Shown here: positions 2,829 through 13,738 of the stretch, one piece after another | How the letters are laid out: every line of letters starts with the position of its first letter | Position numbering within the stretch: the stretch's first letter is position 1 | NCBI RefSeq assembly: GCF_019550915.1 | Contig: NZ_JAHWCI010000002.1 | Coordinates: 186,001-250,000 of the forward strand | Origin: Mumia sp. zg.B17 | Lineage (GTDB): Bacteria > Actinomycetota > Actinomycetes > Propionibacteriales > Nocardioidaceae | Direction of reading: 5' to 3' | DNA length: 64,000 nucleotides | Position numbers and translations under genes: made by a program | Notes under the pieces: generated by a model | Database searches by the model: none | What the model saw: the letters and a program-made list of their open reading frames with translations, nothing else | Told to the model about the DNA's origin: nothing

Positions 2829-4130
2829 CTACGCCTCGTCGTCGCGCTGGTAGACGTCGGGCACGCCGTCACGGTCGTCGTCACACGCCTCGTCCTCACT
2901 GATCCGACGGTAGCGGCGGTTGCGCAGACGCAGCACGACCGTGGCGAGCAGCGCGGCGAGGACAGAGCCCTCGAGCACCCCGATCTTCACGTACTCGTCG
3001 TACGTCGAGGCGAGACCGTACGCGAGGTCGCCGATCAGGAGGGAGACGGTGAACCCGATCCCTCCGAGCATCCCGACGCCGACGACGTCGATCCACCCGA
3101 GCGACGGGTCGAGGCGTGCGTGCGTGAACCTCGCCATCAGCCAGGTGGCCCCGACGATGCCGAGCGTCTTGCCGACCACCAGACCGAGGACGATTCCGTA
3201 CGTGATCGTGCTGCGGTTGGCGTCGAGGAGCCCGCTGACTCCGCCGACGTCGACACCGGCGGCGAAGAACGCGAAGATCGGCACGGCGATGCCTGCCGAG
3301 ATCGGTCGCCAGACGTGCTCGAAGTGCTCGGCGAGCCCTGGGCCGGCCTCCGGGCCGCCCGCCGCCTTTCTGCGCGCCACCGGCACGGTGAATCCGAGGA
3401 TGACGCCCGCGACCGTGGCGTGCACCCCTGAGGCGTGGACGAGGCCCCACGCGAGCAGCGCGAGGGGGATGAGGATCCAGCCCGAGCGCACCCGTCGCTG
3501 CACCAGCACCGCGAAGATCCCGATCGGCACGAGGGCGGCGGCGAACCACCCCACCGCGAGCTGGTCGGTGTAGAAGAACGCGATGATGACGATCGCCAGC
3601 AGGTCGTCGACGATGGCGAGGGTGAGCAGGAAGGTCCGCAGCGCCGTCGGCAGGAAGGACCCCAGGACGGCCAGGACGGCCAGGGCGAACGCGATGTCCG
3701 TCGCCGTGGGGATCGCCCAGCCGCGCAGCGCCGTGCCCCCCGTGCTGAGGTTGACGGCCACGAAGATCAGTGCCGGCACGACCATGCCACCGACGGCAGC
3801 GAGGATCGGGATCGCCGCTCGACGCGGGTCGCGCAGGTCGCCGGCGACGAGCTCGCGCTTGAGCTCGAGCCCGGCGACGAAGAAGAAGATGGCCAGCAAG
3901 CCGTCGGCCGCCCACGTGCCGAGGCTCAGGTCCAGGTGCAGCGACTCGGGGCCGATCCGGGTGTCACGCAGCGTCGTGTAGGCGTCGCCGAGTCCGCTGT
4001 TGGCGAGCACGATCGCGACCGCGGCGGCGCCGATCAGGAGGAAGCCGCCGACGGTCTCCTGCCGTAGCAGCGCGGCGATGCGCGAGGCCTCAGGCCATGA
4101 GCCGCGACCGAGGACGGTGTTCTGGGACAA
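2829..4130 (-). CDS. nhaA: Na+/H+ antiporter NhaA
   Basis: A 433-residue inner-membrane Na+/H+ antiporter with about 12 hydrophobic segments. The family signature stretches are present: [18 protein letters not shown], which carries the conserved TM4 Asp, and [16 protein letters not shown], which carries the paired Asp residues that bind Na+/H+. The annotated start is TTG 4130 (reads [10 protein letters not shown]) because AGAAGGAG lies 5-6 bases upstream. The open frame continues to 4331, but that extension is atypical of the family and runs toward the divergent ABC promoter. The C-terminus is a charged tail, [14 protein letters not shown]. It exchanges cytoplasmic Na+ for external H+ at alkaline pH or high salt (family knowledge). 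Confidence 0.93.
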
Positions 4131-4285
4131 CGGTGCTCCTTCTGGGGTGGTCGAGACGACGCCGACCAGACTTCCCGGCACACCGACACACACTTTACCG
4201 GCGACTCGTTGCTTCGCTGAGGAGACCAGGATCACATACCATCCGGACGGTCGATATTCGATCGCGGCGCCTCCGACACGGTGCT

Positions 4286-4291
4286 TAGGCT
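4286..4291 (+). promoter_or_regulatory. -10 element (TAGGCT) of the ABC exporter genes
   Basis: TAGGCT lies 8 bases before GTG 4300. This is the spacing expected if transcription begins at or next to the start codon, giving a leaderless or near-leaderless mRNA. No ribosome site is visible before GTG 4300. Confidence 0.55.
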
Positions 4292-4299
4292 TGACCGTT

Positions 4300-6027
4300 G
4301 TGAAGAGCCTCCCGCTGGACGACCCAGGCACACCGGACCTCCGTTCGGCGGCCCGCTACATGGCGTGGATCCTGCGTGTCCAGGGCTGGACGCTCGTCGG
4401 CGCGGTCACGTTCGGGATCACCTGGATGGTCGCCCAGGCGTCGGTGCCCGCCGTCATCGGCGCGGCGATCGACGCGGTGGTGGAGCACGGGTTCGGGCGG
4501 GGTCTGGTGCTCTGGTCAGCGCTCCTGCTGCTCGTGGGTGCGATCGGGGCGGCCGCCGGGATCATCCGTCACCGGCTCTCGGTCCAGATGTGGCTGGATG
4601 CGGCCTACCGCAACGTCCAGCTGGTCAGCGGGCACTCCGGCCGGCTCGGTTCGGAGCTGAACCGCCGGGTCGCTCACGGCGAGGTCGTCTCCGTGGGTGC
4701 GACCGACCTCGCGAACCTCGGCAACTACGTGGACGTCGCGGGTCGCTTCGCCGGCGCGATCGTCGCCTATCTCGTCGTCGCGGTGATCCTGCTCCGCTCA
4801 TCGACCACGTTGGGCCTCGTGGTGCTGATCGGTGTCCCGGTCCTCATGCTCGCCACCGGCCCGCTGCTGCGCCGTCTGAACCGACGCAACCAGCACGCCC
4901 GTGCTCTCCAGGGGGAGCTCAACACGCTCGCCAGCGACATCGTCGCCGGCCTGCGGGTGCTTCGCGGGATCGGCGGGGAGGCGATGTTCGACCGCCGCTA
5001 CCGCGCCGCGTCGCAGGACGTCCGCAGAGCCGGCGTCCAGGTGGCGCGGGTGCAGTCGGTGCTCGACGCGCTCCAGGTCCTGCTCCCCGGGGCGTTCGTG
5101 GTGCTCGTCGTCTGGCTCGGCGCGCGCTACGCCGCGTCCGGGGAGATCAGTACGGGCGACCTCGTGGCGTTCTACGGCTACGCGACGTTCCTGCTGCTGC
5201 CGCTGCGCACCTTCACCGAGGCCGCCAACAAGATCATCCGCGGCCACGTCTCGGCGCGGCACGTCATCCGCATCCTCCGCATCGCCCCGAGCGTCTCCGA
5301 CCCCGCTGACCCGGTCAGCCCGCCCGACGGCGACCTTGTCGACGCTTCGACCTCGTTCGTGGCGAGCAAGGGCCTCTTGACCGCCGTCGTCAGCGACGAC
5401 CCGCGGGACGCCGTGGCGCTGGCGGACCGGCTCGGAGGCTACGTCCAGCCGGGACGCGACGACGTCGACGCCGTCACCTACGGCGACGTGCCGCTGGGTG
5501 CGGTCGGTCGGGACGAGCTCCGGCGCCGGGTCGTGGTCAGCGACACCGCGTCCGCCCTCTTCAGCGGGCGCCTCCGAGACGCCCTGGACGCCGGCCGTGC
5601 GACCTCGGACGAAGAGGTCGCGCACGCCCTGACGACCGCCTCGGCCGACGACGTCCTGGAGGCGCTGGACGACGGGCTCGACGGTGAGCTGGCCGAGCGC
5701 GGGCGGTCCCTGTCCGGCGGTCAGCGCCAGCGCATCGTGCTCGCACGAGCACTGCTGACCGACGCCGACGTGCTCGTCCTCGTGGAGCCCACCTCGGCGG
5801 TGGACTCGCACACCGAGGCGCGGATCGCCCAGCGGCTGAGACGCCACCGCGCCGGACGGACCACGGTCGTCGTCACGAGCAGCCCGCTCGTCCTCGACGT
5901 CGCCGACGAGGTCGTGTTCCTCACCGGAGGGCGCGTCGTCGCGAGGGGCCAGCACCACCACCTGATGTCCACCGACCGTGCCTACCGCCAGGTCGTGACC
6001 CGAGAGGAGGCCGAGGACGTTGCATGA
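4300..6027 (+). CDS. ABC exporter half-transporter with degenerate nucleotide site
   Basis: A 575-residue fusion of an ABC exporter membrane domain (about residues 15-320, six hydrophobic spans) and an ATPase domain. The ATPase domain is strongly degenerate. The Walker A position, near residue 360, reads [20 protein letters not shown] and has no GxxGxGKS. Walker B reads [12 protein letters not shown], losing its Asp. The H-loop region reads [10 protein letters not shown], without His. The signature LSGGQRQR (about 471-478) is intact. It therefore cannot form its own ATP pocket but can donate its signature motif to a partner. The gene overlaps the next half-transporter by 8 bp, so the two should form a heterodimer. 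Start GTG 4300 fits TAGGCT 8 bases upstream. Substrate unknown; multidrug-type export is the usual default. Confidence 0.9.
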
Positions 6028-7765
6028 TGCCCTGCCCATCGCCGGCAGCCGAGTCTTCCGCTCCTACCTGCGCCGGATCGGGCGCGACCACCGCCGCGAC
6101 CTCGTCGTGATCGTCGTGCTGCACGGTGCGGCAGCCGGCGCCGGCCTCGTGGTGCCGTGGTTGATCGGCGACCTCGTCGAGGCCGCGACCGACAAGGGCG
6201 GCTACGGCACCATCGACCGGATCGCGATCTTCGTCGCGGTGTGCCTGCTGGCGCAGACCGTGCTCACCCGGTGGGCGCGACTGCGCTCGGCCGTCTTCGG
6301 CGAGACCGTCCTGGCCCGGCTGCGCGAGGACTTCGTCGACGAGGCGCTCGGCCTGCCGATCGGTGTCGTCGAGAGCGCTGGGACGGGCGACCTCCTCACC
6401 CGGACGTCGCGTGACGTCGACACGCTCGGATGGTCCGTGCGCTTCGCGGTGCCGGAGACCGTCGTCGCTCTCGTGACGGCGGCGTGCACGATCGCCGCAG
6501 CGCTGCTCGTCGGCGGCTGGGTCGCCGTCCCGCTCGTGCTGGGCGTGCCCGTCATCTGGGTGGCCTCCCGGTGGTACCTCGCGCGTGCGCGCGCCGGCTA
6601 CATCCGCGAGCACGCCTCGTACTCGCGGATCAACACCACGCTCGCCGAGACCGTCGAGGGTGCTCGCACCGTCGAGGCCCTCGGGCTGGGCGCGCAGCGC
6701 AGCGAACGCATCGACGCCGACATCGCGGAGTCGTACGCGGCCGAGTCCTACACCCGCAACCTCCGCTCGGTGTTCTTCCCCGCGGTCGAGATCGGCTATC
6801 TGGTGCCCGTCGTCGCGACCCTGCTCGTCGGGGGATGGCTGATGGCGCAGGGGTCGATCACGCTGGCCCAGATGACGGCGGCGGTCCTGTACGTCCGGTT
6901 CCTCATCGACCCGGTCGACCGCATCATCAGCTGGATGGACACCCTCCAGGTGGGTGCGACGTCGCTCGCGCGCCTGCTGGGCGTGGCGGAGGTCCCGGAC
7001 GACCGGGTGCCGACCGGTCGCACCCCTGCAGGCGAGGAGATCGAGCTCGACGACGTCCGGTTCTCCTACATCGAGGGCCGAGAGGTGCTCCACGGGGTGG
7101 ACCTCGAGCTGGCGGCGGGCGAGCGGCTCGCCGTCGTGGGCCCGTCGGGCGCGGGGAAGTCGACGATCGGCCGCCTGATCGCGGGCATCCAGGGTCCGAC
7201 GAGCGGCGCGGTCACGGTCGGCGGGGTGGGGGTCACCGAGCTCGAGCTCGACGACCTCCGGCGCCGGGTGGCGCTGCTGACGCAGGAGCACCACGTCTTT
7301 GTCGGCACCGTGCGTGACAACCTCCAGCTTGCCCTGGAGGACGGGGGTACGGCCGCCGACGACCGGCTGTGGGCAGCGTTGGACGCCGTCGGTGCGCGCG
7401 ACTGGGTCGCGCAGCTGCCGCACGGCCTCGACACGATGGTCGGATCCGGTGGGCACCGGCTCACCGACGCCCAGGCGCAGCACCTGGCGCTGGCGCGCGT
7501 CGTCCTGACCGATCCCCACACGCTCGTGCTCGACGAGGCCACGTCGCTGATCGACCCGCGCGCTGCCCGCGCCCTCGAGCGCTCGTTGAGCGCGGTGCTC
7601 GAGGGACGCACCGTAGTCGCCATCGCGCACCGCCTCTACACCGCGCACGATGCCGACCGCGTCGCCGTCGTCGAGGACGGCGCGATCACCGAGCTCGGCA
7701 GCCACGACGAGCTGGTAGCCCGCGGAGGGTCGTATGCGGCCCTGTGGAAGTCCTGGCAGAGCTAG
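6020..7765 (+). CDS. ABC exporter half-transporter, catalytic-site subunit
   Basis: A 581-residue ABC exporter subunit with membrane domain first and ATPase second. Walker A is perfect (VVGPSGAGKST, near 371-381), as are the Q-loop (LLTQEHHVF), Walker B (LVLDEATSLID) and H-loop (AIAHRL). The signature region reads RLTDAQAQHLALAR instead of LSGGQ. This is the mirror image of the upstream subunit. In a heterodimer, its Walker motifs pair with the partner's intact LSGGQ to make one full site, while the second site lacks motifs on both faces. Start TTG 6020 overlaps the upstream stop by 8 bp and has GAGAGGAGG upstream. Confidence 0.92.
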   Translation: MHDALPIAGSRVFRSYLRRIGRDHRRDLVVIVVLHGAAAGAGLVVPWLIGDLVEAATDKGGYGTIDRIAIFVAVCLLAQTVLTRWARLRSAVFGETVLARLREDFVDEALGLPIGVVESAGTGDLLTRTSRDVDTLGWSVRFAVPETVVALVTAACTIAAALLVGGWVAVPLVLGVPVIWVASRWYLARARAGYIREHASYSRINTTLAETVEGARTVEALGLGAQRSERIDADIAESYAAESYTRNLRSVFFPAVEIGYLVPVVATLLVGGWLMAQGSITLAQMTAAVLYVRFLIDPVDRIISWMDTLQVGATSLARLLGVAEVPDDRVPTGRTPAGEEIELDDVRFSYIEGREVLHGVDLELAAGERLAVVGPSGAGKSTIGRLIAGIQGPTSGAVTVGGVGVTELELDDLRRRVALLTQEHHVFVGTVRDNLQLALEDGGTAADDRLWAALDAVGARDWVAQLPHGLDTMVGSGGHRLTDAQAQHLALARVVLTDPHTLVLDEATSLIDPRAARALERSLSAVLEGRTVVAIAHRLYTAHDADRVAVVEDGAITELGSHDELVARGGSYAALWKSWQS

Positions 7766-7869: not shown

Positions 7870-8310
7870 ATGGACGCTGTCGACCGGGAGATCATCGGGC
7901 ACCTGATGCGCGACGGGCGGGCGACCTACGCCGAGATCGGGTCAGGTGTCGGGCTGTCGGCGCCCGCGGTCAAGCGTCGGGTCGACCTGATGCGGGCCCG
8001 CGGCCAGATCACCGGGTTCACCGCCCTCACCGACCCGGCGGCGCTGGGCTGGACCACCGAGGCGTACGTCGAGATCTACTACGACGGCAACGTCTCCGTG
8101 GCCGAGCTCAAGCGCAACCTCGCGGCCATCCCGCAGATCGTCGGCGCGTGGACGGTGGCCGGCCACGCCGACGCGATCGTGCACGTGATGGCGACGAGCA
8201 TGACCGAGATCGAGCAGGTCGTGGAGCGGATGCGGGAGCACGCGCGGGTCGAGCGGACACGCAGCGCGATCGTGATGTCGCGGCTGTTCGAGCGCCCGCG
8301 CTCGCGGTGA
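7870..8310 (+). CDS. Lrp/AsnC family transcriptional regulator
   Basis: A 146-residue Lrp/AsnC protein. An N-terminal helix-turn-helix (VDREIIGHLMRDGRATYAEI followed by GLSAPAVKRRVDLMRARGQI) is joined to a C-terminal RAM/ACT-like ligand domain ending in TRSAIVMSRLFERPRSR. The start is supported by GAGGAGG 8 bases upstream of ATG. A -10-like TAGGCT at 7822-7827 gives a conventional leader of about 35 nt. Proteins of this family bind amino acids and control amino-acid metabolism or export genes (family knowledge). The ABC exporter just upstream on the same strand is a possible target, but nothing in the sequence proves it. Confidence 0.92.
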   Translation: MDAVDREIIGHLMRDGRATYAEIGSGVGLSAPAVKRRVDLMRARGQITGFTALTDPAALGWTTEAYVEIYYDGNVSVAELKRNLAAIPQIVGAWTVAGHADAIVHVMATSMTEIEQVVERMREHARVERTRSAIVMSRLFERPRSR

Positions 8311-8557: not shown

Positions 8558-8922
8558 CGGGGGTCCTCTCGGTCGTCGGAGGACCGCGTGAGGTCCTCCA
8601 AGGTGAGTGTGTCGGCAGGGACGGTGTCGGTGTTCTCGGCCGGGTCGTCGTCGTCCGGCTGCTCGGCAGCGCCCGGCGTGGGGTCCAGAGTCGTCGGTGG
8701 CGCCACCGCGGTGCGCTGCTCGCGCTGCCGCCGACCCGCCTGGCGCGCGGCGATCAGCGTCGCGACGAGCCCGACCGTGCCGAGGGCGACAAGGAGCAGG
8801 GGGGCCGCCACCGCGAGGGTGGCCGGCTCCCAACCTGCGTACCACATGCCCCACAGGGCGCCCGCGACGAGCACGAACGCGAGCGCGACGAGGGTGACGG
8901 CGTCCAACGGATGACGCTTCAT
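8554..8922 (-). CDS. Two-span membrane protein of the PspC locus
   Basis: A 122-residue protein with two hydrophobic segments (about residues 9-28 and 33-58) followed by an Arg-rich turn, AARQAGRRQREQR, and a long acidic, disordered tail containing PDDDDPAEN and ending SSDDREDPR. No enzymatic motif is visible. It overlaps the 64-residue PspC gene downstream and the large PspC/LiaF-like gene upstream by 4 bases each, so the three form one tightly coupled operon. It is probably an accessory membrane component of the same envelope-stress system (inference from context). Confidence 0.82.
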   Translation of the reverse strand: MKRHPLDAVTLVALAFVLVAGALWGMWYAGWEPATLAVAAPLLLVALGTVGLVATLIAARQAGRRQREQRTAVAPPTTLDPTPGAAEQPDDDDPAENTDTVPADTLTLEDLTRSSDDREDPR

Positions 8923-10226
8923 GAGCGGATCACCTCCACGTCACCGAGGGAGACGTCGATGCTGAGGATGAGGTCGGGGAGCGAGGAGTCGTCGTGCACG
9001 TCCAGCGACGTCTGCACGCCGCCGCGCTGGTAGCCGAGGGCTGTGATCGAGCCGGCGCCGACGGAGGCGTCGAGGTCGATGTCGAGGGTGGCGGGGACGT
9101 ACACCCTGACGCCACCCAGACCGACCTCCAGCTCGAGCCGGCGCCCGTCCAGGGCCGCGGGGTCGGAGACCTGCCGCAGGTCCACCACGACCTCGCCCGT
9201 CCCGACCGCGTAGCCGGACCTCAGGTCCGCCGCGCTGGTCGGCACGGTCTCGATCCGGCCGGCGTCCAGGCGTGGGATGACGGTGGAGACAGCGAGGACC
9301 ATGACGGCGAGGATGGCCGGCAGGATCAACGGACGAGCGTTGCCGAACACCGTGCCGATCAGCATGCCCAGCGCGAGTGTGCCCGTCGCCGCCGCGGCGT
9401 AGACCGACGGCGCGAGGTCGCCCTGGGTGGCGACGAGCGTGACGCCGGTGACGATGAGCATCACCGACAGGGTGATGACGGTCAGCGTCCCGCGGTCGTG
9501 CCGCGGGTTCGGCCGCTTGGGCGGCTTCACCGGGGCGGGTTGAGGAGCGGAACCCCACGCTGGTCCGGGTGGTCCTGGCGGCACAGGAGGCACGGCGGCG
9601 TACGACGGGGCTCCGGTCGGCGCGAAGGGCGTCGCGGTCACCGGCGCCGGAGCGGTCGGCGCCCACGGCGGAGGAGCGTACGAGGGCGCCGGCGGAGGCG
9701 GCACGTTCGGCGGCGGCGTGACCGAGGAGGTGCCGGAGTCCCGCCGCTCCTGGTACTCGCGGTAGCCGACCCACGCGATGACGACCAGCGCCGCGACCCA
9801 CAGCGGGCCGATCTGCCATCCCCAGCCCCAGGTCCACGTGACCGCGATCAGCCCCGCGGCCCCGAGACCGACGAGACGGATCTGGGGCTCGCTGTCGCCC
9901 AGTCCCAACCATCGCTTGAGATAGCTCTCGCCCGTCCGCTCGTCCGGAATCAGGATCCATGAGGCGACGTAGGCGATGACACCACCGAACCCCACGAGGG
10001 TGAAGACCGCGAACAGGATGCGCGGGATGACCGGGTCGATCCCGAGCGTCCGCCCGATGCCCGCGCACACCCCGGCCACCATGCGTCCGCTCTCGGTCCG
10101 CCGGATGTCGGTCAGCGAACCGGTGGTCGGTGGTCGGGCCGCGCCCTCGGGCGCGGTGCTCGAGCCGGTCCCGAGGCTCGCCGGTGGTGTCACCGGGTCC
10201 TCGGGGCGTGAGGTCGTGTCGTCCAT
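8919..10226 (-). CDS. PspC-domain protein with LiaF-like C-terminal domain
   Basis: A 435-residue membrane protein. Residues about 40-100 form a PspC domain (MVAGVCAGIGRTLGIDPVIP and a WILIPDE end). Further spans follow near 115-150, then a Pro-rich linker (about 165-245), then more spans. The C-terminal domain resembles the LiaF/DUF2154 adhesin-like fold, with repeating beta segments such as LELEVGLGGVRVYVPATLDI and a final SIDVSLGDVEVIRS. LiaF-type proteins repress an envelope-stress sensor kinase until cell-wall damage occurs (family knowledge). The divergent gene here is a PspC-containing histidine kinase, so a similar inhibitor role is likely. Start ATG 10226 has AGGATGGAG upstream; a longer open frame to 10880 is not used. 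Confidence 0.88.
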   Translation of the reverse strand: MDDTTSRPEDPVTPPASLGTGSSTAPEGAARPPTTGSLTDIRRTESGRMVAGVCAGIGRTLGIDPVIPRILFAVFTLVGFGGVIAYVASWILIPDERTGESYLKRWLGLGDSEPQIRLVGLGAAGLIAVTWTWGWGWQIGPLWVAALVVIAWVGYREYQERRDSGTSSVTPPPNVPPPPAPSYAPPPWAPTAPAPVTATPFAPTGAPSYAAVPPVPPGPPGPAWGSAPQPAPVKPPKRPNPRHDRGTLTVITLSVMLIVTGVTLVATQGDLAPSVYAAAATGTLALGMLIGTVFGNARPLILPAILAVMVLAVSTVIPRLDAGRIETVPTSAADLRSGYAVGTGEVVVDLRQVSDPAALDGRRLELEVGLGGVRVYVPATLDIDLDASVGAGSITALGYQRGGVQTSLDVHDDSSLPDLILSIDVSLGDVEVIRS

Positions 10227-10330
10227 GGCTCCATCCTGCTCGGCTTGTGTCACTTGGAGTATGGGTGAGACCCCTGGTCCGCACCCGGTGCGCGCCGGCC
10301 CGCCCCAGGGTCGCTCAGGGGTCGATCCGG

Positions 10331-10345
10331 CTGGTCCGAGACCAG
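10331..10345. promoter_or_regulatory. Dyad between divergent PspC/LiaF-like and kinase genes
   Basis: A perfect inverted repeat, CTGGTC and GACCAG with a 3-base spacer, lies 8-23 bases before the kinase start in the 130-bp divergent region. A second CTGGTCCG copy lies about 65 bases away near 10276. It may be an operator for the NarL-type response regulator encoded at 11658 (inference). Confidence 0.35.
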
Positions 10346-10368
10346 TGCCGCGTGTGACGATCGACAGC

Positions 10369-11661
10369 GTGACCATCAGTGCGACACCGGTGAGACGGCT
10401 CTCCCGATCCGCGAGCCCACGCGTTCTCGGCGGGGTGGCGCAGGGACTCGCCGACCACCTCGGCGTCCCTGTCCTGTGGGTGCGGCTCGCGTTCGTCGTG
10501 GGCACGCTGTTCCAGCTCGCCGGCGTCCTGGCGTACGTCGCCTTCTGGGTCTTCGTCCCGCTGGGGAGCGCCGATGGCTCGCCCGGGCTGGCCAGTGCGA
10601 CCCGCCGCGGGCTGCGGCTCGACGAGGACGAGGCGACACCGCCGTCGAACAGGATGACCCTGCAGACCACCGCGCTCGTCGTGCTCGGTGTCGGCGTGGC
10701 GTGGTTCGTCCTGGGCAGCGACAGGGTCTCGAGCCTCGTCTTCCCCGCTGTCCTGGCGATCGCCGGCTTCGCGCTCATCTGGCGCCAGGCCGACGACCGG
10801 TTGCTGCGCCGCTGGGTCAGGGTGACGTCAGGATGGGCCGCCGTGCTGAGGATGGCGGCCGGCGCCCTGCTGGTGCTCATCGCCTACGGCGTGTTCGTGG
10901 CGCAGCTCGGGGGCGGTCTGGGGTCGGCCGCCCAGCTGCTCGCGGCGCTGGTCGTCGCCGTCGCCGGCGCCGGCCTGCTGCTCGGGCCGTGGATCGTACG
11001 CCTGGTCAGTGATCTCGCCGCCGAGCGGCGCGAGCGCGTGCGGTCGCAGGAGCGGGCCGACGTGGCGGCCCACCTCCACGACTCCGTCCTTCAGACCCTG
11101 GCGCTGCTGCAGAAGAACGCGAACGACCCGGCGCAGGTCGCGACGCTCGCCCGGCGTCAGGAGCGGGAGCTGCGCGACTGGCTGTACGGCGAGCCGGCCG
11201 ACGACGACGGCTCCACGCTACGGACCGGCCTGGTCGCCGACGCCGCCGAGATCGAGACGACCTATCGGGTGCCGATCGAGGTCGTCGGGGTCGGTGACCT
11301 CGATCCGGACGTCGACGTGGAGGCGCTGCGTGCGGCCGCGCGCGAGGCCATGACGAACGCGGCGAAGCACTCCGGTGCCGACCGCATCGACGTCTACGTC
11401 GAGGTCGGGAGCGCGGCGGCGGAGGTCTTCGTGCGCGACCGCGGCGTCGGGTTCGACCCGTCGGCGATCCCGGAGGACCGGTTGGGCATCCGCCGCTCGT
11501 TGGTGGCGCGCATGCACAGGCACGGCGGCACGGCCGTCGTACGCTCAGGACCAGGGGAGGGCACGGAGGTTCGACTCGCGCTGCCCCTCGTACGAGACAA
11601 GGCGCCCAACGGCGCACACGAGGCTGCGCGCAACGGCGCGGACGGAGGAGGAGACGCGTGA
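10369..11661 (+). CDS. PspC-domain sensor histidine kinase (NarL-type partner)
   Basis: A 430-residue sensor kinase. A PspC domain occupies about residues 10-65 (RVLGGVAQGLADHLGVPVLW then WVFVPLG). Several membrane spans follow to about residue 220. The HisKA_3 helix is ADVAAHLHDSVLQTLALLQK, whose first His-Asp pair holds the phospho-acceptor. The HATPase domain has the N-box REAMTNAAKHSGA and G-box DRGVGFDP. An in-frame GTG at 10354 is an equally possible start, as neither has a clear ribosome site. It overlaps the response regulator by 4 bases (GTGA) and is divergent from the PspC/LiaF-like gene, forming a self-contained envelope-stress system (inference). Confidence 0.92.
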   Translation: MTISATPVRRLSRSASPRVLGGVAQGLADHLGVPVLWVRLAFVVGTLFQLAGVLAYVAFWVFVPLGSADGSPGLASATRRGLRLDEDEATPPSNRMTLQTTALVVLGVGVAWFVLGSDRVSSLVFPAVLAIAGFALIWRQADDRLLRRWVRVTSGWAAVLRMAAGALLVLIAYGVFVAQLGGGLGSAAQLLAALVVAVAGAGLLLGPWIVRLVSDLAAERRERVRSQERADVAAHLHDSVLQTLALLQKNANDPAQVATLARRQERELRDWLYGEPADDDGSTLRTGLVADAAEIETTYRVPIEVVGVGDLDPDVDVEALRAAAREAMTNAAKHSGADRIDVYVEVGSAAAEVFVRDRGVGFDPSAIPEDRLGIRRSLVARMHRHGGTAVVRSGPGEGTEVRLALPLVRDKAPNGAHEAARNGADGGGDA

Positions 11662-12400: not shown

Positions 12401-13738
12401 ATGAGATGCCAGTTCGTGCCGCCGTACCTCCTCGACCGGCTCGCCGATGTCGGCCACGGCCACGCCGTCGACTTGTTCGGCCGCACCCGTGGGCTCGACG
12501 AGCGGCTGAGGGAGCGGCGCGCGACGACGTCACCGTCGGTCGCGCAGCCGCCCGACGCGGACGGGACCAAGACGATCTACAGCGCCGGGGGTGGGACGAG
12601 CCTGCCGGGCGACAAGGTCCGCGGTGACGCCGACCCGCCGACGGGAGACCAGGCGGTCGACGAGGCGTACGACAGCACCGGCATCGTGCACGAGCTGTTC
12701 TCCACCGTCTACGGACGCAGTGGCATCGATGACGCAGGCAGCACCGTCACCGTCACGGTCCACTTCGGGCGGGCCTACGACAACGCCTTCTGGGACGGTG
12801 ACCAGCTGGTGTTCGGTGACGGAGACGGCGAGGTGTTCGAGCGGTTCACCAAACCGCCTGACGTGCTCTTCCACGAGTTCACCCACGGCGTCACGCAGTT
12901 CACCGCGGACCTGCGCTACTCGGGTCAGTCCGGTGCGCTCAACGAGTCGGTGTCCGACTGCTTCGCGGCCATGGCGCTCCAGCGCCAGTTCGACCAGACC
13001 GCCGAGCAGGCCGACTGGTTGATCGGCGAGGGCCTCTTCAAGCCGAGCATCAACGCCGTCGCGCTCCGCTCGATGCGCGAGCCCGGCACGGCGTACGACG
13101 ACCCGCTGCTGGGCAGGGACCCGCAGGTCGGGTCCATGCGCGACTACGTCGAGACCACGGCCGACAACGGTGGCGTGCACATCAACTCCGGCATCCCCAA
13201 CAAGGCGTTCACCCTCGCGGCGCTGCGCCTGGGCGGCTACACGTGGGAGCGCACCGGGAGGATTTGGTACGCCGCGCTGACCGGGGACGCGGTCGGACGT
13301 GACAGCGGGTTCGGCGAGTTCGCTGCCGCGACGGTCGCCGCGGCGGGGGACCTCTACGGCGAGGAGGAGGCCGACGCCGTGAGCGCGGCGTGGGAGGAGG
13401 TCGGTGTCACCCCGGGTCTCGATGCCGCGGATGCGGGCGCTCCGGCCCGTCGCTCGGGGCGGATCGTGGTGTCGCGCACGGGCGGCTTCACCGGCGTGGT
13501 GCGCGAGGCCGCGGTCGACGCCGACGAGGGGCCTCTCGGGGCCGAAGTGGCGTCGATTCTCCAGCAGGTCAACTTCACGGCGCTGCCCATCCGCGACGCC
13601 GATCCGCGGGGCGCCGACCGGTTCACCTACACGTTCACGTACGGCGACCAGCAGGTGACGGTCCCGGAGAGCGCGCTCACTCCCGAGCTCGAGCGGGTGG
13701 CCACGTTGGTTCTCGGCCGGTTGGCAGATACCCCCTAG
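12401..13738 (+). CDS. M4 metalloprotease (protealysin-like) with C-terminal emfourin-like domain
   Basis: A 445-residue thermolysin-family zinc protease with no signal peptide. It starts MRCQFVPPYLLDRLADVG, which holds the PPYLLxRL motif of the short propeptide in protealysin-like proteases. The catalytic site is complete: HEFTH (about 159-163), the third zinc ligand in ALNESVSD and the catalytic His in GGVHINSGIPNKAF. After residue about 350 comes an extra 95-residue domain, SGRIVVSRTGGFTGVVREA ending VLGRLADTP. It resembles emfourin (protealysin inhibitor), which in other bacteria is usually a separate gene beside the protease. The natural reading is a protease that carries its own inhibitor or regulator. 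A TAGACA hexamer 6 bases before ATG is a possible leaderless -10. Confidence 0.92.
   Translation: MRCQFVPPYLLDRLADVGHGHAVDLFGRTRGLDERLRERRATTSPSVAQPPDADGTKTIYSAGGGTSLPGDKVRGDADPPTGDQAVDEAYDSTGIVHELFSTVYGRSGIDDAGSTVTVTVHFGRAYDNAFWDGDQLVFGDGDGEVFERFTKPPDVLFHEFTHGVTQFTADLRYSGQSGALNESVSDCFAAMALQRQFDQTAEQADWLIGEGLFKPSINAVALRSMREPGTAYDDPLLGRDPQVGSMRDYVETTADNGGVHINSGIPNKAFTLAALRLGGYTWERTGRIWYAALTGDAVGRDSGFGEFAAATVAAAGDLYGEEEADAVSAAWEEVGVTPGLDAADAGAPARRSGRIVVSRTGGFTGVVREAAVDADEGPLGAEVASILQQVNFTALPIRDADPRGADRFTYTFTYGDQQVTVPESALTPELERVATLVLGRLADTP

Follow-up and report, generated by a model that had tools for sequence, protein, structure and literature searches.

Actinobacterial half-transporter pairs with one P-loop-less subunit and a single predicted ATP site

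The S1 and S2 genes

Two genes for ABC half-transporter subunits, here called S1 and S2, lie head to tail with an 8-base overlap in the window, the whole stretch of 64,000 nucleotides of Mumia sp. zg.B17 DNA that was analysed (genome, 3.86 Mb in 18 contigs). S1 (positions 4300–6027, forward strand; 575 residues, GTG start) and S2 (6020–7765, forward strand; 581 residues, TTG start) are both open frames. In S1, the Pfam family ABC_membrane is matched at residues 45–301 (80.4 bits) and ABC_tran only partially at residues 404–499 (35.7 bits), the latter match beginning only at profile position 54; the membrane domain thus precedes the nucleotide-binding domain (NBD), as in a half-transporter. In S2, ABC_membrane (99 bits) and full-length ABC_tran (89.6 bits) are matched. 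All four scores lie above the cut-offs, and both families were matched by 27/27 S1 rows.

Motifs, all on the forward strand of the window, were read in an S1 set of 122 rows (119 distinct) consisting of 40 regions taken from related genomes, 80 loci of named genomes, the own-genome paralogue, and the window, and in 121 S2 rows (118 distinct). The named loci are the best 80 of 586 loci confirmed in a scan with membrane-domain patterns, a sample that leans to close relatives. S2 has a complete Walker face, composed of the A-loop Tyr350 (7067–7069; Tyr in 121/121 rows), Walker A GPSGAGKST (residues 374–382; 7139–7165), the Q-loop Gln422 (7283–7285; Gln in 121/121 rows), Walker B and D-loop VLDEATSLID (residues 503–512, including Asp505–Glu506; 7526–7555; DE in 118/118 non-gap rows), and the H-loop His537 (7628–7630; His in 118/118 non-gap rows). 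Its signature is altered, reading LTDAQAQH by alignment (residues 481–488; 7460–7483), with a family consensus of about L(S/T)PAQAQQ.

When aligned with S2, ordinary exporters, and the sister group S1b described below, S1 reads SDDPRDAV at the Walker A position (residues 365–372; 5392–5415) and SDTA at the Q-loop position (residues 414–417; 5539–5550). In the Walker B segment (residues 492–502; 5773–5805), Asp is replaced by Val495, with the catalytic Glu496 and the D-loop SAVD retained, and the H-loop His position is occupied by Ser528 (5881–5883). The signature LSGGQRQR (residues 471–478; 5710–5733) is intact, with SGG in 121/121 non-gap rows. The alignments confirm the sequence-only reading of this DNA, which had described S1 as lacking Walker A, the Walker B Asp, and the H-loop His but keeping LSGGQRQR, and S2 as keeping Walker A, Walker B, and His with the signature LTDAQAQ; they add the loss of the A-loop hairpin (~14 residues) and the Q-loop Gln from S1, both overlooked there.

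Around the pair, an Lrp/AsnC-type regulator (7870–8310, forward strand) lies directly downstream. A divergent Na+/H+ antiporter of the NhaA family (2829–4331, reverse strand) has a listed GTG start overlapping the first 32 bases of S1; translation probably begins farther inside the frame. Farther along are two PspC-domain frames on opposite strands (8919–11661), one fused to a histidine-kinase-type ATPase domain, and a protein combining a thermolysin-type M4 peptidase with an emfourin domain (12401–13738, forward strand). Gene context was considered as a source for the substrate and rejected: the only frame groups recurring around most of the 80 compared stretches, in over half of them, are the pair itself or, by position, frames antisense to it, and the next groups reach 23 loci, at a high G+C content that yields many false frames.

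Distribution and descent of the P-loop-less subunit

The pattern GxxxxGK[S/T] occurs in 0/122 S1 rows (119 distinct) versus 121/121 S2 rows (118 distinct). S1 and S2 are neighbours in 79 of the best 80 of the 586 named loci, the remaining locus being cut by a contig end, and the hosts of these 80 loci include Nocardioides, Kribbella, Micromonospora, Actinoplanes, Streptosporangium, Nonomuraea, Catellatospora, and others, among them a Thermoleophilia MAG. In addition, regular expressions found the same motif split in 21/21 further pairs (20 genomic and one on an Arthrobacter plasmid), and no S1 P-loop in 30 loci of a phylum-wide draw, the window's own locus included. A frameshift or sequencing error is rejected as the origin of the loss, because independent genomes share the P-loop-less S1. 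Both findings named beforehand as fatal to the sequence-only reading, such an error or an S1-clade homologue with an intact Walker A, failed to appear, the latter among all S1-clade homologues inspected. Its central claim, that all motifs are present in one composite site and lost from both faces of the other, is supported and extends to an old, conserved state of the family. The loss of the Walker B Asp, by contrast, holds for the S1 of the window and not for the whole family, since 8/21 further S1 rows read DEPTSAVD or a close variant. Altogether, a P-loop-less S1 paired with an altered-signature S2 is a family-wide state common to many actinobacteria.

The spread of the family was counted by profile scores, with motifs read in the fetched loci only. 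S1 was matched at E ≤ 1e-70 in 68/98 related genomes, 11 of the listed matches ending at about residue 382–422. The S1 core of one related region (L043) does not differ from that of a named Nocardioidaceae record (L078), which points to Nocardioidaceae as the probable family. By score, the full-length profile was matched at E ≤ 1e-90 in 190/393 Actinomycetes genomes (55/122 genera), and at E ≤ 1e-100 in 26/296 genomes of the phylum-wide draw. Among the 72,556 records of a plasmid collection, six match at E ≤ 1e-50, all of them actinobacterial. In the Arthrobacter plasmid copy (L240; NZ_CP012477.1, 368868–378595), S1 and S2 each carry the annotation ABC transporter ATP-binding protein, although this S1 is without ATP-binding motifs. 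In one genome, a third S1 copy, split in two frames (G062:C1:3077485-3079178; L194, L200), represents either a frameshift or a decaying copy. In large genomes of family f6 (L161, L162, L163, L164, L167, and L184), S1–S2 directly adjoins another exporter half, whose P-loop is normal and whose signature reads SAGQ.

A tree of 85 rows hand-picked from the fetched loci (built by a quick method and rooted at the midpoint, with 12 compositionally odd rows) places all 37 P-loop-less subunits on one side of one branch and all 32 partner subunits on one side of another (SH-aLRT, 100 for both). Rows were likewise hand-picked for the alignments (27/42 rows in the model alignments, 31/85 rows in the motif alignment), and the motifs of further loci and homologue searches were read by regular expression. 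The P-loop-less side divides into S1 and its sister group S1b, with support of 99 each; S1b likewise lacks the P-loop by alignment, and retains more of the N-terminal hairpin than S1. The genome of the window holds a second, distant pair of the S1b type (G000:C12:385851-389278; L002, L190), whose first subunit is also without a P-loop. The first S1 branch (L066, L170, L182) retains the DE of Walker B. As this branch and the 8/21 further rows noted above keep DE, the Walker B Asp seems to have been lost later and only in part of the family.

An S1-clade subunit with a Walker A was sought by regular expression with the full profile in eight genomes, where none was found. A second search, in 14 genomes, used only the membrane domain, so that the altered NBD would have no influence on the results. 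This search reproduced the P-loop split: the eight strongest frames (at least 130 bits) are all P-loop-less. The next match (L219), at 128 bits, comes from a fused double exporter with two summed membrane domains and two P-loops. Among the weaker matches, one alone fails the P-loop pattern, an otherwise ordinary exporter half (L229; G302:C1:1990830-1991687) with the Walker A ALTGGGKST, in which the first Gly is replaced by Ala; this is a change and not a loss.

Selection and predicted structure

Nei–Gojobori proportions were averaged over 15 pairs within one genus (the window and five species). The pN/pS ratios of the membrane domains are close to each other in the two subunits (0.245 and 0.268), and the whole NBD evolves about twice as fast in S1 as in S2 (0.375 versus 0.188). 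Within the S1 NBD, the piece from the signature to the D-loop (residues 465–510) has a ratio of 0.073, and the other three pieces have ratios of 0.394, 0.499, and 0.421. S1 is open and full-length, and with the low ratio of its signature region, this leads us to reject a recent pseudogene. Entropies over distinct rows, ranked among 8-residue windows, divide in the same way: the S1 signature (0.25 bits; 1.4th percentile) and residues 495–502 (0.16; 0.5th percentile) are highly conserved, and the pseudo-Walker A (2.05; 88.7th percentile) is among the least conserved windows. In S2, Walker A stands at 0.09 (0.3rd percentile) and the signature at 0.76 (24th percentile). From this split in both measures, S1 seems to be maintained for its contribution to the S2 site. 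Judged by its residues, the dead face is not simply idle, because Pro368, Asp415, and Ser528 of S1 are conserved and the S2 signature has its own consensus, about P-A-Q-A-Q-Q.

AlphaFold2 models built from 27-row alignments have pLDDT values of 84.8 (S1) and 84.9 (S2). The NBD fold is kept in the S1 model, in which a strand (residues 360–365) leads almost directly into a helix (368–378); in the same region of the S2 model, the P-loop lies between a strand (369–373) and a helix (380–387). The long hairpin of S2 (residues 341–351 and 354–364) has shrunk in S1 to two three-residue strands. A profile of S1 residues 340–425 (25 rows) matches the Walker A region of ordinary exporter NBDs, for example that of EfrCD (7ocy_B; E, 4e-7), among the best 60 of 195 matches, which supports a substitution of the P-loop in place; none of the 25 members of this stretch matches any Pfam ABC family on its own. 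The top structural matches to the S1 model are tied, namely MsRv1273c/72c (9iqg_A; Z-score, 27.8; root-mean-squared deviation, 4.5, over 554 aligned residues), YbtPQ (27.7), and TM287/288 (27.5), and the S2 model matches solved exporters with Z-scores of ~31 over more than 500 aligned residues.

Relation to known exporters and a proposed single-site cycle

By Pfam domains and whole-length fold, S1 and S2 are assigned to type I (type IV fold) ABC exporters, with export as the predicted direction. Like degenerate-site heterodimeric exporters, they are encoded by adjacent half-transporter genes, with one site complete and the partner signature altered; the Walker A usually retained at the degenerate site, which is no part of the strict definition, is present in 0/122 and 0/21 S1 rows. 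No named NCBIfam equivalog (MsbA, CydC, CydD, SmdA/B, Tet(46), and others) reaches its cut-off among the best 25 of 179 matches for S1 and of 182 for S2. Since no description of a P-loop-less exporter subunit was found in searches of open-licence PMC papers, we file the pair as an apparently new variety of degenerate-site heterodimeric exporter, with assembly and transport as predictions. TmrAB, BmrCD, EfrCD, and TM287/288, which match both S1 and S2 structurally, are also bacterial heterodimers that export with one degenerate site; the first three bind nucleotide at that site, unlike the site of S1, which has no P-loop. The polyene exporters NysG/NysH and the milbemycin exporters may, we presume, be relatives of the pair. 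The fused actinobacterial exporters L199 and L208, which also have one degenerate site (the first half reads DDATSAVD, the second LSAGQ), differ from S1 in having P-loops in both halves and lie outside the S1 branch. Statements on the motifs of NysG/NysH or the milbemycin exporters were sought in open-licence papers, including passages of PMC8966021, and none was found.

A close described case is the mycobacterial pair MsRv1273c/Rv1272c, the top structural row for S1 and likewise an actinobacterial pair of half-transporters with one impaired site. Unlike S1, its degenerate site keeps Walker A and the A-loop and binds ATP through Walker A, the differences lying at the Glu, His, and signature positions, as given in the excerpted text of PMC12038006. 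According to passages of a review (PMC7756269), TM287/288 also binds nucleotide at the degenerate site; in human exporters this site differs mainly in the signature and by Glu-to-Asp replacement, and the Walker A changes named are Lys to Arg in ABCG5/G8 and Lys to Cys in Pdr5. Yeast Pdr5 resembles the S1–S2 pair in that all motifs of one composite site are changed on both faces, and differs from it as a eukaryotic full-length transporter of another fold class (part of PMC7756269). A Pdr5-type (PDR) assignment was rejected, as S1 is a half-transporter with the membrane domain before the NBD, the opposite order to that of Pdr5. These sources, as far as the available sections of PMC7756269 and PMC12038006 go, agree with the proposal of the sequence-only reading that the pair is more extreme than known asymmetric exporters.

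We consider it probable that S1 and S2 form an obligate heterodimeric exporter with one ATP site, in which the mirror interface is a nucleotide-free hinge; assembly, the use of one ATP per cycle, the hinge, and export are all predicted features. ATP would be held by S2 through Tyr350, Walker A, Gln422, Asp505–Glu506, and His537, and the signature and D-loop of S1 would close over it. The mirror site, formed by the Walker face of S1 and the signature of S2, would bind no nucleotide, so that the two NBDs would touch there through protein alone as a hinge, with one ATP bound and hydrolysed per cycle. Counting against a single site are the retention of Glu496, with the whole Walker B intact in some members, and the conserved residues of the dead face, as well as the ATP that stays at the degenerate site of known degenerate exporters (sections of PMC7756269 and PMC12038006). 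That single-site operation is feasible is suggested by P-glycoprotein, since this transporter still transports with one Walker A mutated and one intact catalytic site suffices there, as is predicted for S1/S2; unlike S1, these are engineered point mutants that still bind ATP (PMC4846820).

Other functions are conceivable. An S1–S2 pair that uses the same single ATP site to import its substrate, or to act as an ATP-gated channel or sensor, appears unlikely: chains of YbtPQ and IrtAB, siderophore importers with an exporter fold, share the top of the structural ranking in a tie, but the exporters MsRv1273c/72c, TM287/288, and TmrAB match equally well, the fold alone gives no direction, and no neighbouring gene suggests uptake. 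Less likely still is a pseudo-pocket of S1 repurposed for a different ligand or a regulator, as might be read from the conservation of Ser528 (121/121 non-gap rows), Pro529 (119), Pro368 (114), and Asp415 (107), because the pseudo-P-loop as a whole is poorly conserved and the retained residues would also fit helix caps and turns.

Other readings concern the dead site and S1 itself. Weak binding of ATP at the dead site through the S2 side and backbone contacts, in the manner of Pdr5, is improbable; Glu496 is retained in 115/121 S1 rows and Pdr5 is altered in all motifs of one site, but its Walker A change is only Lys to Cys (excerpts of PMC7756269), whereas in S1 the glycines and lysine are missing together with the A-loop hairpin and the Q-loop Gln, and the loop varies freely. 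The idea that S1 is decaying and that S2 functions by itself in homodimeric form, to which the twofold faster evolution of the S1 NBD would lend itself, is largely refuted and scarcely credible: S1 is intact and stays paired with S2 in nearly all of the compared named loci, few of its windows are as conserved as the signature and the D-loop, and in an S2 homodimer, by reason of the S2 motifs, both sites would be without a proper signature.

What the degenerate site contributes is still under discussion; a review argues that it stays under selection and that ATP there serves as a stationary hub (passages of PMC7756269). A widespread natural P-loop-less family makes this question directly testable: it allows one to ask whether a pump limited to a single ATP in each cycle is functional and whether its motion is still asymmetric. 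Since S1b has lost the P-loop and kept more of the domain, and some S1 subunits keep the Walker B carboxylates, different degrees of loss are available for comparison. For annotation, the S1 of the Arthrobacter plasmid illustrates a P-loop-less subunit named as an ATP-binding protein. On balance, we expect a large actinobacterial family that uses exactly one nucleotide per pump, in which one NBD would have ceased to bind nucleotide and only lend its signature and D-loop, and the second site would be a permanent, protein-only hinge; if this is true, the ATP to which a stationary-hub role is ascribed elsewhere among degenerate exporters would prove dispensable.
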